Assembly (NCBI GenBank): GCA_002238725.1 | Contig: MPMX01000006.1 | Location: 1-64,000, forward strand | DNA from: Rhodospirillaceae bacterium bin65 | Lineage (GTDB): Bacteria; Pseudomonadota; Alphaproteobacteria; Bin65 | Direction: 5' to 3' | Length of the DNA: 64,000 nucleotides | Part shown: one piece after another, positions 52,275 to 57,076 of the stretch | How positions within the stretch are numbered: position 1 is the first letter of the stretch | How the letters are laid out: each line of letters begins with the position of its first letter | Notes under the pieces: model-generated | The model's input: only the letters and a program-made list of their open reading frames with translations | Databases searched by the model: none | What the model was told of the DNA's origin: nothing | Made by a program: the position numbers and the translations under genes

Positions 52275-53261
52275 ATGAAAGCGCCCGCAGCGACCGTCCT
52301 TGCCGTCGCGCTGCTTTCGGCTCATGCGAATGCCGGCAGCGTGGGCTACCGAGAAATCGCAGTCGAAGCCGATGGCGAGCGCATGGCGATGGCGCTCTGG
52401 TATCCGTCCCCAGCGTCTTCCGGGCGGACGCGAATCGGTCATTTCGCCATGGCGGCGACACGAAACGCGCCGCTCGGCACGGGGCGCTACGGCCTTGTCC
52501 TGATTTCGCACGGCACCGGCGGCCATCGTCTGGGCCATCGCGGCACGGCGATCCGGCTGGCGCAGGCCGGCTACATCGTGGCGGCGCCGGAGCACAGCGG
52601 CGACAGCTGGCGCGACGACCGCTACAGCGGCACCGCGGCCAACTGGCGCCGCCGCCCGCGTCACCTGAGCGCGGTACTGAACCGGCTGCTCGGCGATGCC
52701 GAATTCAAGGCGCGCATCGACCCGCGCCGGATCGGCGCCATCGGCCACTCGGCCGGCGGCTACAGCGTGCTGGCGCTGATCGGCGGCCGGGCGGACCCGC
52801 GCCTGCTCGTCCGGCATTGTACCCGCTATCGCGACAGGGACCCGGACTTCTGCGCCTACGGCCGGCAGAACGGGCCTGCCGGCGGGCTGCTGCCCGACCT
52901 CAGCGACCGGCGGGTGCGCGCGGTCGTAGCCGTCGCGCCGGTCGGCGCGCTGTTCGGCATCGGGGCGTTCGCGAGGGTTGCGGCGCCGGCACAGATCCAT
53001 CGCCTCGGCCGCGACCGGGTTCTGCGCCGGCCGTGGCACGCGGACAACATCGTGAGACTGATGGGCGGGAACGCGCGCCTCACCGTGCATCCGGAGGCGC
53101 ATCACTTCGCCTTCATCGCGCCCTTTCCGGCCGCCCTGGCCGTTGAGGTCGGCGCGCCGGCGCGCGATCCGCCGGGATTCGACCGCCGCGCTTTCCTCGA
53201 CCGGATCGACCGGCAGATTCTGGCTTTCCTCGATTCCGTCCTCGCCGCGCAGCAACGCTAA
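52275..53261 (+). CDS. Secreted alpha/beta hydrolase (dienelactone-hydrolase-like)
   Basis: This 328-residue protein has a short signal peptide (MKAPAATVLAVALLSAHANA-G). The nucleophile elbow is GAIGHSAGGYS, and LISHGTGGHRLGH forms the oxyanion strand; a late VHPEAHHFAFI supplies the candidate His. The family covers exported esterases related to platelet-activating-factor acetylhydrolase-like proteins. It lies 25 bp after the helicase gene, though a shared function is unlikely. Its stop is 37 bp before the IS1-like transposon. Confidence 0.86.
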   Translation: MKAPAATVLAVALLSAHANAGSVGYREIAVEADGERMAMALWYPSPASSGRTRIGHFAMAATRNAPLGTGRYGLVLISHGTGGHRLGHRGTAIRLAQAGYIVAAPEHSGDSWRDDRYSGTAANWRRRPRHLSAVLNRLLGDAEFKARIDPRRIGAIGHSAGGYSVLALIGGRADPRLLVRHCTRYRDRDPDFCAYGRQNGPAGGLLPDLSDRRVRAVVAVAPVGALFGIGAFARVAAPAQIHRLGRDRVLRRPWHADNIVRLMGGNARLTVHPEAHHFAFIAPFPAALAVEVGAPARDPPGFDRRAFLDRIDRQILAFLDSVLAAQQR

Positions 53262-53290: not shown

Positions 53291-53298
53291 ACTGGCGC
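53291..53298. repeat. Target-site duplication, left copy
   Basis: ACTGGCGC abuts the left inverted repeat and is repeated exactly after the right one. Eight bases is the usual IS1-family duplication length. Confidence 0.85.
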
Positions 53299-53319
53299 GG
53301 TAGTGCATCAGTTTGAATT
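53299..53319. repeat. Left terminal inverted repeat of the IS1-like transposon
   Basis: The sequence begins GGTAGTGCATCAG and is a perfect inverted match over 21 bp to 55730-55750. The transposase stop codon (53308-53310) lies inside it. Confidence 0.92.
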
Positions 53320-54186
53320 GCGGTTCTTGTAGGGACCGCGCGGGCCGGGCTTCGGGGTGCGTTCGTCCATGATCCGCACCAAGTCTTCCATGTCCCAGAC
53401 AGTCTTGCTCAGACCGGCTTCCATGGCCGGGGTGACGCGAAGCGTTTTGTGGATACGGATGAAATTGTACCAAACGGTATAGAGCGCAACCATGTGCATG
53501 TGGTTCTCAAATTTCTTAGAGAACGCATTAGTCAGCCGGGTGAACCGGCGCATGTGCATCCGCATGGTCAGGTTCTGGCGTTCAACGTAGGACGTGCTGA
53601 CCGCGGCCGGGTCGGGGTTGCCTTCGATCCGCCGCTTGCGAGCACCAACGCAGGCAGCGGGGCTGTAGCGCTTCTGTGCTTCCGGAGCTTCGCCGTACAG
53701 CTTGATTAGCTGGGCATAGTCCACATCGCCGCCGAACGCGCCCTCAACAGCTTCCAGATACGCCTTGTGGCCATCTGTCATAAGCTGAACCCGGTTCGCC
53801 AGCCGGCTGCGCAGATCGTCCATGAACTCAATCGCATATTCGCTGTTGCGACCTCCTACCAGCCAAGAGACGATCAGCTTGCTGTCACTGTCTAGCGCGG
53901 TCCATGTCCATGTGTCGCCAGCTTCGGACGGCGCGGCCTTCGCTGTCTTGACGTTCTTCTGTTTGGCATAGGTGAACGACCAGATTTCGTCGCACTGGAT
54001 GCGGCTGGCGGTAACACCCTGCACCATTTCGTCATGCAAATCGGCGCAGACCTTGCCGGCATCGATCAACAACTTGGCGACCGTGTTGAAGCTCACATCG
54101 GCCAGCCGCGCGGTTGCCCGCATGGACTGGCCTTCGCAAAGCATTTTGAGGATCAGGGAACGGGCTTTAGGCGGTAGCTTGTTCAT
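53308..54186 (-). CDS. IS1-like DDE transposase
   Basis: This 292-residue transposase has an N-terminal helix-turn-helix (LILKMLCEGQSMRATARLADVSFNTVAKLL). The catalytic residues are the Asp in IQCDEIWSF, the Asp in LMTDGHKAYLEAV and the Glu in SYVERQNLTMRMHMRRF. The C-terminal WYNFIRIHKTLRVTPAM is typical of the long IS1-related transposases of alphaproteobacteria. It starts at ATG 54186; a longer reading from 54225 has no ribosome-binding site. The last three codons are in the left inverted repeat. It looks intact. Confidence 0.92.
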   Translation of the reverse strand: MNKLPPKARSLILKMLCEGQSMRATARLADVSFNTVAKLLIDAGKVCADLHDEMVQGVTASRIQCDEIWSFTYAKQKNVKTAKAAPSEAGDTWTWTALDSDSKLIVSWLVGGRNSEYAIEFMDDLRSRLANRVQLMTDGHKAYLEAVEGAFGGDVDYAQLIKLYGEAPEAQKRYSPAACVGARKRRIEGNPDPAAVSTSYVERQNLTMRMHMRRFTRLTNAFSKKFENHMHMVALYTVWYNFIRIHKTLRVTPAMEAGLSKTVWDMEDLVRIMDERTPKPGPRGPYKNRNSN

Positions 54187-54192
54187 GTCAAT

Positions 54193-54221
54193 AAAATATG
54201 AACAAAAATGCGTAGCGTCAA
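54193..54221 (-). promoter_or_regulatory. Putative transposase promoter (possibly leaderless)
   Basis: On the minus strand TTGACG (54221-54216) and TATTTT (54198-54193) have a 17-bp spacer. The expected transcript start falls on the ATG at 54186, so the message may be leaderless. Confidence 0.4.
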
Positions 54222-54235
54222 GCATTTATTTCGAG

Positions 54236-54263
54236 TTGTATCTTTTTGCTCCCATGATATATT
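54236..54263 (+). promoter_or_regulatory. Putative promoter of the passenger genes
   Basis: TTGTAT (54236-54241) and TATATT (54258-54263) with a 16-bp spacer lie 30 bp before the first passenger ATG, divergent from the transposase promoter. Confidence 0.45.
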
Positions 54264-54293
54264 CAGCACACCCCCGCCCCTGGAGTGCTACTG

Positions 54294-54467
54294 ATGCAGC
54301 ATATGACCCCTGTCGAGATGCTCAATGAGCTGATTCGCTTAGGCTATATTACCCCTGCCGATGACGCTTCGGCAATCTCCATGCCGAGCGCCTACCAAAG
54401 CGTTCCCAATATTACTGTGTCCGACACCGATCCTGCTGTTGAGGATATAGAGAAAAAAAATGCCTAA
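54294..54467 (+). CDS. Small passenger protein upstream of the protease
   Basis: This 57-residue protein starts MQHMTPVEMLNELIRLGYITPADD and has an acidic C-terminus. It is not recognised. The ATG at 54294 is preceded by GGAG at suitable spacing; a GTG at 54285 is an alternative. Its end overlaps the protease start by eight bases, so the two are translationally coupled and the small protein may be a partner or regulator of the protease. Confidence 0.6.
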   Translation: MQHMTPVEMLNELIRLGYITPADDASAISMPSAYQSVPNITVSDTDPAVEDIEKKNA

Positions 54468-55443
54468 CTGGAATGCTTTACTTAAAGAAATCAAGAAAAC
54501 TCAGGCAATGGGTGATAGCAGTGCATTTGATACCGTAAGACGTAAGTATATTGGCCAGCTAAATACGCACACGGAAAGGAATGTAATTGCGTATTATTCT
54601 GGGTTTTTGAGCAAACCCGGCATTAAGGGAATCGACATTACAGATGAAGACAAGAATTGATTTATGTCATGCGTTCACGGAATGGATAGAAACAAAGGGC
54701 TAGACCTCCTTATTCATACACCCGGTGGCGACATCGCCACAACCGAATCCCTAGTGCATTATTTGAGAGAAATGTTCGGCAACAATATAAGAGCAGTGAT
54801 TCCACAGATCGCTATGTCTGCTGGGACAATGATCGCTTGTTCTTGCGATACAATATTGATGGGCAAGCATTCCAACATTGGCCCCGTTGACCCGCAATTC
54901 AATGGAATACCGGCTATCGGCGTTTTAAAAGAAGTTGAGGTTGCCTTTGATGAAATAAAAAAAGACCCCAAAGCTGCCCCGGCATGGAAGCCAATACTCT
55001 CACAATTACCCCCATCATTCCTGCAACAATGTCAGTGGTCTGTTTCGCGGTCGGCTGAGTTCTTAAAAGATTCGCTTAGAAGTGGAATGTTACGCGACCT
55101 TCAGGAACCGGAAAGAGAAGACACGATCAAGAAAATTGCCGAAAGGTTAACGGACCTTGGATATAACAAAACACACAATCGACATATACACTATCAGGAG
55201 TGCATGGATCTTGGGCTAAATGTAGAAATGCTAGAAAATAAAAAAGAGAAAAAACTACAGGATTTAGTTTTGACGGTACACCATTGCTTTATGCACACTC
55301 TAGCCAATACCGCTTCATTTAAGATTATTGAAGACCACCGAGGCAGGGCGACGATTAAACAACAGCAACGCCCTAGAAATTTGCAAGTTCAGATTCCTGC
55401 AAACGCAGGCCCGACAAACACACCTAAAGTCATTGCGACTTAG
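54460..55443 (+). pseudogene. SDH-family ClpP-fold serine protease with one in-frame TGA
   Basis: The frame reads as one 327-codon gene with a single stop, TGA at 54658-54660. The first part ends AYYSGFLSKPGIKGIDITDEDKN and the second continues FMSCVHGMDRNKGLDLLIHTPGGDIATTES, which joins as a normal SDH (serine dehydrogenase proteinase, ClpP/crotonase superfamily) sequence where a Gly codon (GGA) is expected. The oxyanion strand HTPGGD and nucleophile Ser in IAMSAGTMIACS are present, as is the following GKHSNIGPVDPQF. The part after the stop begins at an ATG (54664) but would lack the N-terminal 66 residues. It is probably a recent nonsense mutation or sequencing error; read-through is possible. 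Confidence 0.8.
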
Positions 55444-55669
55444 CAGCCCAGCGCATCTGCGCCGCACGTCGAGCGGCTTCGCTGCGTTCCCTGTCCGTCA
55501 GTTTCTGGGCCCGTGCCCTGCCACCCTTCGCCCCAAGCGCCTTAGCGGCAGGGTTCTTGCCGTCGTCTTCAAACTCTTCCTCTTCCTCGCCGGTCGCGAT
55601 GCGCATGACCTTCACGGCATTGCCGATCACGTCGGCTGGGCGCCTCTGGCCCTGTGGACCTTTGGGCAT
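55430..55669 (-). CDS. Small basic/acidic passenger protein
   Basis: This 79-residue protein starts MPKGPQGQRRPADVIGNAVKVMRIATG, then an acidic run EEEEEFEDD and a basic KALGAKGGRARAQKL helix ending AARRAAQMRW. Similar small proteins are common in alphaproteobacterial mobile DNA, with no proven role; nucleic-acid binding is plausible from the Gly-Gly-Arg-Ala-Arg segment. It converges with the protease gene (14-bp overlap). Its G+C is higher than that of the protease. Confidence 0.65.
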   Translation of the reverse strand: MPKGPQGQRRPADVIGNAVKVMRIATGEEEEEFEDDGKNPAAKALGAKGGRARAQKLTDRERSEAARRAAQMRWAAKSQ

Positions 55670-55729
55670 GGCGAGTCTCCATGTGCTTCCCGCTAAGCAT
55701 AAGGCAAAATGACCCGTGGCGACAGGCCA

Positions 55730-55750
55730 AATTCAAACTGATGCACTACC
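55730..55750. repeat. Right terminal inverted repeat of the IS1-like transposon
   Basis: The sequence ends CTGATGCACTACC, an exact complement of the left repeat, and is followed directly by the second ACTGGCGC. Confidence 0.92.
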
Positions 55751-55758
55751 ACTGGCGC
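55751..55758. repeat. Target-site duplication, right copy
   Basis: ACTGGCGC is the second copy of the duplicated target. It lies about 40 bp before the TPP riboswitch. Confidence 0.85.
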
Positions 55759-55797
55759 ATTGGCCGGCAGGGGTGCTAGTCTTGCGGCATCGAAGTT

Positions 55798-55887
55798 CCG
55801 CCGGGGTGTCGTCCGGCCGCTCAAGCGGCGGCGGGCGTCTGAGATCATACCCGTCGAACCTGACCTGGGTCATGCCAGCGTAGGGAG
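55798..55887 (+). promoter_or_regulatory. TPP (thi-box) riboswitch
   Basis: Conserved thi-box elements occur in order: GGGGTGTCG near the 5' end, CTGAGATCATACCCGTCGAA, and CCTGACCTGGGTCATGCCAG followed by CGTAGGGAG. A variable stem (GGCCGCTCAAGCGGC) lies between the first two. Thiamine pyrophosphate binding would hide the GGGAG that serves as the ribosome-binding site of thiO, so control is probably at translation. It governs thiO-thiS-thiG-thiE. Confidence 0.93.
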
Positions 55888-55894
55888 CCGTCCG

Positions 55895-57076
55895 ATTCAG
55901 ACGCCGCATTCCCGTTCCCGACGCCCGGAGACCGTCGCCGTCATCGGCGCCGGCGTGTGCGGGCTGGGCATCGGCTGGCGGCTGGCCCAGGCCGGCTGCC
56001 GGGTCGACATTTTCGACCGGGGCGCGATCGGCCGGGGCGCCAGCCACGCCGCCGCCGGGATGCTCGCCGCCGGTGTGGAAACCGAGCCCGGCGAACTGGA
56101 CCTGTTGCGGCTCAATCTGCGGAGCCAGCAGGCCTGGCCCGCCTTCGCCGCCGAACTCGAAGCGGCGGGCGGGCAGGATATCGGCTACCGCGACGACGGC
56201 ACCCTGGTCGTCGCGCTGACCCGGGACGACGAGCGCCAGCTCCGCTTTATCCACGACTATCACTGCCGCGCCGGGATCGAGGTCACGCTGATCGGCGGCG
56301 GCGAGGCGCGGCAGCGCGAACCGTATCTCAACCCGCGCATCCCGGCCGCCGTGTGGAGCCCGAACGACCATCAGGTCGACAACCGCGCCCTGACCGTGGC
56401 GCTGGCAGCCGCCGCCGCCTGCGCCGGCGCGCAACTCCTGCCCGACTGCGAGGTCGAGGCCGTCCGCGTCGAAAACGGCCGGGCCGCCGGGGTGGTCGTT
56501 GCGGGCGAGACCGTGGCGGCCGATGCCGTGATCCTCGCCGCCGGCGCCTGGAGCCGGACGGTCGGCGGGCTGGAGCCGTCCGCCGTGCCGCCGGTCCGCC
56601 CGATCAAGGGCCAGATGCTGGCCTTGCAGATGGACCCGGAAGCCCCGCTGCTGCGCCATGTGCTGTGGGCGCCGGGCATCTATCTGGTGCCGCGCCGCGA
56701 CGGCCGCCTGCTGATCGGCGCGACGGTCGAGGAAAAGGGCTTCGACGAGACGATCACCGCGGGCGGTCAGTATGCGCTGCTCGATGCGGCGTGGCGCGCG
56801 CTGCCGGGGATCGAGGAATTGCCGATCGCCGAGACCTGGACCGGCTTCCGCCCCGGCTCGCGCGACGACGCGCCGATCCTCGGGCCCGGCCCGGTCGACG
56901 GCCTGGTCTATGCGACCGGACACCATCGTAACGGCATCCTGCTGACTCCGGTCACGGCCGACCTGGTGAGCCGTTTCGTTCTGACCGGGGAACTGGATCC
57001 GGCGCTGGCGCCCTTCACCCTGGCGCGCTTCGATCCGGCGCTTGCTTCGGGTCCGGCCTCGATGGCGGCGGAGTAG
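55895..57076 (+). CDS. thiO: Glycine oxidase ThiO
   Basis: This is an FAD-dependent enzyme that oxidises glycine to dehydroglycine for the thiazole of thiamine. The dinucleotide motif is VAVIGAGVCGLGIGWRLAQAG, with GRGASHAAAGMLAAG next and a C-terminal TGHHRNGILLTPVTADLV. No ATG, GTG or TTG exists in frame between the riboswitch and the Rossmann strand. The best start is the ATT at 55895, seven bases after GGGAG, giving about 393 residues; this is unusual and tentative. A TTG at 55760 lies upstream of the riboswitch and is rejected. Confidence 0.88.
   Translation: MQTPHSRSRRPETVAVIGAGVCGLGIGWRLAQAGCRVDIFDRGAIGRGASHAAAGMLAAGVETEPGELDLLRLNLRSQQAWPAFAAELEAAGGQDIGYRDDGTLVVALTRDDERQLRFIHDYHCRAGIEVTLIGGGEARQREPYLNPRIPAAVWSPNDHQVDNRALTVALAAAAACAGAQLLPDCEVEAVRVENGRAAGVVVAGETVAADAVILAAGAWSRTVGGLEPSAVPPVRPIKGQMLALQMDPEAPLLRHVLWAPGIYLVPRRDGRLLIGATVEEKGFDETITAGGQYALLDAAWRALPGIEELPIAETWTGFRPGSRDDAPILGPGPVDGLVYATGHHRNGILLTPVTADLVSRFVLTGELDPALAPFTLARFDPALASGPASMAAE

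Follow-up and report, generated by a model that had tools for sequence, protein, structure and literature searches.

A probable member of an alphaproteobacterial IS1-type transporter insertion sequence family with exchangeable, usually toxin-antitoxin or anti-phage cargo

Introduction

Insertion sequences (IS) of the IS1 family have short terminal inverted repeats and produce target duplications of 8-9 bp, with ends starting GGT and an 8-bp duplication being typical. Their transposase is organized as insA and insB' joined by a frameshift, though not in all subgroups. Here we describe an IS1-type element at positions 53299-55750 of a 64,000-nucleotide stretch of Rhodospirillaceae bacterium bin65 (contig MPMX01000006.1, positions 1 to 64,000; this whole stretch is referred to as the window). 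The element encloses a transposase gene, a cargo composed of a small gene and an SDH-type ClpP-fold protease gene, and a short gene called GGRARA. We assign it, with a probability of about 0.78, to a family of alphaproteobacterial IS1-type transporter insertion sequences shuttling exchangeable cargo, usually of the toxin-antitoxin (TA) or anti-phage type.

Several described systems come close to this arrangement. Transporter ISs (tIS) are IS derivatives with passenger genes enclosed by IS ends (PMC9330008). The present element agrees with that description in that its IS ends enclose the transposase together with genes unrelated to transposition, and differs from it in having a second fixed gene and recurring TA or defence cargo. 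In the Tn3 family, TA modules have been acquired several times near the transposition genes and are found in 39 of 190 transposons (PMC7157771). The acquisition of TA modules as passengers is common to both; Tn3 transposons, however, have an unrelated transposase, a resolvase site and a larger unit, whereas here there is no resolvase and the cargo fills the middle. The cargo of Tn7-like transposons is described as enriched in defence against mobile genetic elements and in TA modules (PMC8649781), but it is large and is moved by a multi-gene targeted machinery, in contrast to the two fixed genes and 2-4 kb found here. RosmerTA with an ImmA antitoxin is described as a tested defence system (PMC10440598).

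The family's XRE-ImmA cargo proteins match the PADLOC models of RosmerTA (toxin RmrT, ImmA antitoxin RmrA) and PD-Lambda-2, whereas their partner genes are mostly unmatched by these models. The protease resembles the SDH family of Clp-fold serine proteinases (PF01972) in its domain score above cut-off and its invariant Ser, Asp and His; unlike the reference family, it scores under the cut-off of the NCBIfam equivalog and is paired with a fast-changing small gene. The element itself is like the IS1 family in its DDE_Tnp_IS1 match, its ends starting GGT and its 8-bp duplication, and unlike it in having one transposase open reading frame (ORF), a second conserved gene, cargo, and a size of 1.9-4.0 kb in the family. 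No account of IS1-type elements with such cargo, or of a small gene-SDH pair, was found in the literature searched, which comprised open-licence papers only, with ISfinder and TnCentral outside the comparison.

Results

The element is an insertion with an empty site in relatives

An initial annotation, made from the sequence alone, had described an IS1-like transposon carrying AT-rich cargo between perfect 21-bp ends and an 8-bp duplication. This description holds. The insertion is 2,452 bp long, its two 21-nt arms (53299-53319 and 55730-55750) are 100% complementary (21/21), and the 8-mers on either side (53291-53298 and 55751-55758) are identical, forming a target-site duplication. The G+C content of the cargo is 44%, as against 67% for the window. 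The empty site, with joined flanks and no break at the junction, was found in four genomes of the same genus. In two of them (G006 and G005, loci L131 and L132) both joined flanks align across the empty junction; in the other two (G001 and G002, loci L133 and L134) 24 bp of the left flank and the entire right flank do so. A fifth aligned locus (L135, G004) stops short of the junction. Since the flanks align uninterrupted at these empty sites, the segment 53291-55758 is a true insertion. The features of the insertion are as follows.

53291-53298, no strand: left target-site duplication, 8 bp, identical to 55751-55758; single copy at the empty site of relatives
53299-53319, plus strand: terminal inverted repeat, overlapping the 3' end of the transposase gene; 21/21 complementary to 55730-55750
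53308-54225, minus strand: IS1-type DDE transposase (Pfam DDE_Tnp_IS1)
54294-54467, plus strand: small gene of 57 aa, partner of the protease cargo; 8-nt overlap with the protease start
54460-54660, plus strand: N-terminal part of the SDH-type protease, 66 codons, up to an in-frame TGA (tblastn with the intact L063 protein)
54664-55443, plus strand: remainder of the SDH-type ClpP-fold protease, read in frame with the N-terminal part (Pfam SDH_protease; invariant Ser, Asp and His)
55430-55669, minus strand: GGRARA gene, 79 aa, constant in the family; 14-nt overlap with the protease 3' end
55730-55750, minus strand: terminal inverted repeat on the GGRARA side, complementary to the left arm
55751-55758, no strand: right target-site duplication, 8 bp, identical to the left copy

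On the left the insertion is flanked by a gene that ends at 53261, on the right by a TPP riboswitch (55792-55903; Rfam RF00059, 59.5 bits). This riboswitch is 34 bp past the right duplication, ahead of thiazole-synthesis-like genes. The element is thus inserted directly upstream of the riboswitch, whose promoter it may have displaced.

The transposase matches Pfam DDE_Tnp_IS1 with 33 bits (cut-off 24.1) and scores 66.5 bits with the NCBIfam IS1 equivalog, under the cut-off of 100. It is encoded by a single ORF of 292-305 aa without frameshift (292 aa when counted from the conserved start, 54186), so the insA/insB' layout expected of IS1 is absent; the short terminal inverted repeats and the target duplication of that family are present. 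Relatives of the transposase in plasmid records carry the annotation 'IS1 family transposase', and a distant IS1 relative was also seen in the annotation table of locus L220.

Fixed ends, transposase and GGRARA gene define a family

A search with an alignment of transposases found 416 relatives in genome contigs. The best 80 of the 416, together with the window, the two other copies in its genome, four plasmid loci and four loci from relatives, made up 91 candidate loci, in which elements were delimited with the family consensus end GGTAGTGNNTCANTTTGAA. In 50 of the 91, both ends are present and flanked by an 8-bp duplication, which is exact in 47 and has one mismatch in three; these delimited elements measure 1,947 to 4,013 bp. 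The other 41 comprise 10 loci with both ends and a duplication that is unreadable or does not match, and 31 loci without one or both ends. It is noted that the element end lies up to ~650 bp beyond the transposase gene at some loci.

The GGRARA gene is found inside all 50 delimited elements, between the left end and the transposase, whatever the cargo, and in 49 of them on the transposase strand. Over all candidates it is present in 79 of 91 loci (50/50 delimited, 10/10 with both ends, 19/31 of the rest). Nine of the 12 loci lacking it have less than 2.3 kb of contig upstream, two (L017 and L125) are the same contig, and one (L126) has a truncated transposase.

An independent check was made on 385 alphaproteobacterial genomes, with transposase and GGRARA paired by eye; the counts are lower bounds, since part of the first-look candidates was scored. 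There are at least 32 transposase places in at least 26 genomes. At 29 of the 32, GGRARA is no more than 3 kb away on that contig, with the strand shared in 27 and opposite in G005 and G296. The places without it are G063:C83 (at a contig end), G313:C49 and G004:C35 (truncated). Searched in the other direction, GGRARA occurs in 37 of the 385 genomes, at 39 places with an E-value of 1.6e-19 or better and at six weaker ones, again as lower bounds. A strong transposase match is nearby at 28 of the 39 strong places. Seven of the remaining 11 were read: two (L256 and L261) have transposase pieces, two (L259 and L260) are at contig ends, and three (L257, L258 and L262) have no transposase nearby. 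For the other four, the contig begins no more than 1 kb away. As read from these loci, the family architecture is one of fixed ends, a transposase at one end and GGRARA at the other, usually with both genes on one strand, and a middle that can be exchanged.

The opposite-strand cases are at odds with this usual layout: the exception among the 50 delimited elements (L124, in the same-genus genome G005) and L264 (G296) both have GGRARA on the strand opposite to the transposase, and both have exact 8-bp duplications. A complete chromosome carries a decayed element at L256 (4692-6426), in which GGRARA is accompanied by fragments of an SDH gene and by a broken transposase.

The initial annotation had grouped the small GGRARA protein with the protease. 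A role as protease partner is ruled out, as GGRARA is in 50 of 50 delimited elements irrespective of cargo; for the same reason we regard the gene as part of the transposon. In the window's genome it occurs at three places, one in each of the three elements and nowhere else. The protein is mostly 73-80 aa long and falls into two subtypes, with 47% mean column identity over 38 rows. The ratio of nonsynonymous to synonymous substitution rates (dN/dS) is 0.04-0.21 in six of seven pairs and undefined in the seventh. Three helices are predicted with moderate confidence (pLDDT 78.9, pTM 0.36). Its constancy across the family points to a possible role in transposition or the control of transposition. 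A search of plasmids returned GGRARA in two records only, while a profile found it in all four plasmid loci examined; the low-complexity filter therefore probably hides the gene in the former search. It should be mentioned that two P63C cargo proteins (L023:4896-5873 and L024:4792-5919) have an N-terminal stretch similar to the C-terminal half of GGRARA, encoded on the strand opposite to the element's own GGRARA gene.

Copies in the source genome and recent movement

When the genome was searched with the element and its end, two further elements were found, on contigs C25 (13962-16880) and C86 (54134-57355), with transposases 97% and 70% identical, respectively, to that of the window. At the DNA level, the C25 element matches the window element with 91% identity at the transposase end and 78-83% at the GGRARA end, with no match in between. 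By sequence, these two elements are the same vehicle with unrelated cargo. The C25 cargo has three genes, one with a weak helix-turn-helix (HTH) match; the name DUF6941 was rejected for one of the proteins, as no library match supports it, and this trio is left unnamed. In the C86 cargo, a HigB-like toxin gene and a third gene accompany an XRE-ImmA gene that matches PD-Lambda-2_B. A lone family end is present on contig C10 (G000:C10:5084-5104, L015), and its surroundings contain neither a transposase nor labelled cargo; it may belong to a miniature remnant, whose other end would be a weak match at a distance of 253 bp.

In Tsuneonella rigui (L038, L040, L041 and L042) two copies, identical over 2,047 bp, occupy separate sites; when the sequence is followed across contig ends, each copy is flanked by an 8-bp duplication of its own. 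Both are counted among the 10 both-end loci, not among the 50. Identical copies with separate duplications indicate recent transposition in this organism. Taken with the empty site of the window element, they imply, at the level of sequence comparison, that the element probably transposes as a single unit.

Cargo classes and their exchange

The cargo lies in a stretch of ~0.8-2.3 kb between the fixed genes and was scored in 75 nonredundant loci that have both the transposase and GGRARA. PD-Lambda-2_B-like XRE-ImmA genes are found in 19 loci and RmrA-like XRE-ImmA genes in another 19, so that 38 of 75 loci, about half, carry genes of the RosmerTA or PD-Lambda-2 type, labels which rest mainly on the ImmA protein because the partner genes are mostly unmatched. 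STAND/AAA genes follow with six loci, SDH and P63C genes with five each, the C25-type trio with four, and the L019 and L028 types with two each; Bro-N/DinD-like, methylase-HNH, L038-type and L046-type cargoes occur once each. The 50 delimited elements give a similar list: PD-Lambda-2_B-like 13, RmrA-like 13, STAND/AAA 5, SDH 5, P63C 3, trio 3, one each of L028 type, Bro-N, L046 type and methylase-HNH, and 4 unmatched. A transposon specific to the protease is ruled out by these numbers: SDH is one of many exchangeable cargoes, carried by 5 of 75 loci only.

The labels were assigned as follows. PADLOC at 1e-10 on 23 ImmA proteins gave 13 PD-Lambda-2_B and 10 RmrA matches; the remaining XRE-ImmA loci were assigned by tblastn to the PADLOC-tested proteins, and other cargo was named by Pfam. 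The RmrT partner was matched in two of four proteins tested (L053 and L070), and the first gene of L014 is HigB-like by Pfam. At 1.9e-82, the protein of L039 matches one of PADLOC's candidate families. No match at 0.01 was obtained for the L019 protein or the two P63C proteins tested. One of the loci without labelled cargo, L045, has a Gp49/HTH pair. Single-gene cargoes of ~180-190 aa, coiled-coil-looking by eye, were seen at L028 (5176-5757), L068 (5256-5801) and L080 (5302-5871); the L028 protein has a HARE-HTH domain.

Exchange was evaluated by placing 13 cargo labels on a tree of the 75 transposases, with 200 label shuffles. The tree requires 37 label changes, the least possible number being 12 and the shuffled mean 48.1, and none of the 200 shuffles reaches or undercuts 37. 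The clustering is mostly that of PD-Lambda-2 (8 changes for 19 rows); RmrA-like cargo needs 16 changes for 19 rows, SDH 5 for 5 and the trio 4 for 4. On the transposase tree, cargo is repeatedly exchanged. Being more clustered than in every shuffle, it is also inherited to some degree.

The SDH protease and its small gene

The protease frame of the window (54460-55443) is interrupted by a TGA at 54658-54660 (codon 67), giving two ORFs in one frame. The downstream part contains the SDH_protease domain at 72.9 bits (Pfam cut-off 31.3). An intact homologue of 318 aa is present at L063 in Hyphomicrobium (PF01972, 71.9 bits, same cut-off), and in tblastn this protein aligns across the window stop with 51% over residues 1-318. 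Ser123, Asp147 and His240 (L063 numbering) are invariant in 10 proteins and all three lie after the stop in the window; their order, Ser-Asp-His, is that of the SDH protease in Pfam. The NCBIfam equivalog score is 86.6, against a cut-off of 250. In a sequence search against solved structures, PH1510-type NfeD proteases and ClpP were found. The initial annotation had coupled a 57-residue protein to an SDH-type protease; the 8-nt overlap and the domain score agree with this description. The in-frame TGA had been missed.

SDH cargo with both ends and a duplication is present in the window, L063, L103 (an Acidiphilium plasmid), L089 and L054, the last with a match of 26.2 bits, under the Pfam cut-off. 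The small gene abuts or overlaps the protease gene in the window, L063, L103 and L122, that is, in three of the five delimited SDH elements; L122 is a locus with one family end, cut by its contig. Two SDH genes outside recognised elements (L118:6974-7876 and L123:5897-6808) have in-frame stops, and the frequent interruption of SDH genes is perhaps a sign that the gene is costly.

The pair is also found in viruses. Of 257 SDH relatives in viral contigs 80 were examined, and 72 had enough upstream sequence. An ORF of 40-130 aa ending -70 to +30 nt from the protease start precedes SDH in 68 of the 72 loci, and in 45 of 48 after removal of near-copies. For comparison, such an ORF precedes 50 of 142 long ORFs other than SDH at these loci and 372 of 1429 random positions, the latter being poorly matched as a control. 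A two-gene SDH operon is thus conserved in mobile settings. Since the cargo recurs with these ends and the pair recurs in viral contigs, the suggestion of a mobile protease with a small partner stands. The position of the pair in phage records varies: next to an integrase, within a Mu-like early/lysis region, or between structural genes.

Many families are represented among the small proteins. The 57-aa protein of the window joins the viral small gene of L164 (phmmer, E < 0.01), and that of L063 joins those of L103 and L148. The predicted structure of the window protein is of low confidence (pLDDT 60.7). For seven pairs of one family the dN/dS is 0.04-0.19, ratios that are rough because several dS values exceed 1 (five of the seven); by this measure the small gene of the viral SDH pairs is under purifying selection. 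The SDH protease and its small gene are a candidate new module shared by transposons and viruses.

Discussion

We propose that the transposase would cut or copy the unit via its ends, and that GGRARA could act as an accessory or regulatory transposition protein, perhaps with the part that InsA has in IS1. The cargo, usually a TA-type anti-phage module, would repay the host or addict it, and so keep the element in the population. For the SDH pair, the likeliest scheme by analogy is that the translationally coupled small protein checks or aims the protease, which would be released upon infection or when the pair is lost; we infer a defence, toxin or stability module. In the window the stop breaks the protease frame, so that the module has probably lost its function in this copy of an apparently intact transposon.

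Going further, the two-gene vehicle of IS1-type transposase and GGRARA may have been selected for carrying interchangeable anti-phage modules, with the SDH pair as a new protease-based defence or TA system common to transposons and temperate phages and the small protein as its fast-evolving inhibitor or sensor. We hold this extension only tentatively, at somewhat less than even odds. Doubtful, yet the nearest competitor, is the view of the cargo as selfish addiction, in which TA pairs stabilise the transposon by post-segregational or 'take me or die' effects and phage defence is a by-product. It draws on the TA type of half of the cargoes and on the 'take me or die' role proposed for Tn3 transposon TA pairs (PMC7157771). 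However, the models matched by the commonest cargoes are those of catalogued anti-phage systems, the methylase-HNH fusion and the STAND-like ATPases are no classical addiction pairs, and the host still has the element despite the broken protease of the window. The frequency of SDH pairs in viral contigs and the weak similarity of the SDH protein to head-maturation proteases would also fit a protease serving the life cycle of the transposon or phage by processing transposase or phage proteins, with GGRARA, small gene and protease as one set. We consider this improbable: the transposon does not need the protease, given its presence in so few family loci, and the phage genes occur at differing places. 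That an IS1-type element picked up passing genes once, with no leaning to defence, is disfavoured as very improbable, for although the cargoes are varied and some have no assignment, 50 delimited elements share one architecture with recurring cargo classes, and the same class appears on distant branches of the transposase tree.

Several results weigh against the assignment to a family of shuttling TA or anti-phage cargo, or against the module proposed for the SDH pair. Besides the clustering of cargo on the tree and the roughness of the small-gene dN/dS ratios, the protease copy of the window is probably inactive because of its in-frame TGA, and 3 of 7 SDH matches in the 385 genomes (the window and two others) are interrupted. 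The delimited SDH elements L089 and L054 have no evident small gene (L054 unscored). The SDH proteins of L063, L089 and L054 are unmatched by PADLOC at 0.01, and at 0.001 neither the SDH proteins tested nor the three C25 cargo proteins have a match. Among the four RmrT partners tested, those of L025 and L030 were unmatched. PD-Lambda-2 is a three-component system, and no PADLOC match to its other components was found for the first and third genes of L014 or the third gene of L082. Nine of the 75 loci match no labelled cargo, several of them without recognisable function. As for GGRARA, its predicted model has no PDB match and the protein matches no Pfam or NCBIfam family at cut-offs.

If the assignment to a transporter IS family is correct, the ends, the transposase and GGRARA would constitute a small, recognisable vehicle that moves RosmerTA-like, PD-Lambda-2-like and other modules singly among alphaproteobacteria, and such movement would proceed outside islands, prophages and plasmids. 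The family raises the testable question of what role a second conserved gene has for an IS1-type transposase. Because the ends mark the cargo exactly, the unassigned cargoes of the family are candidate defence or TA systems, the first of which would be the SDH pair.

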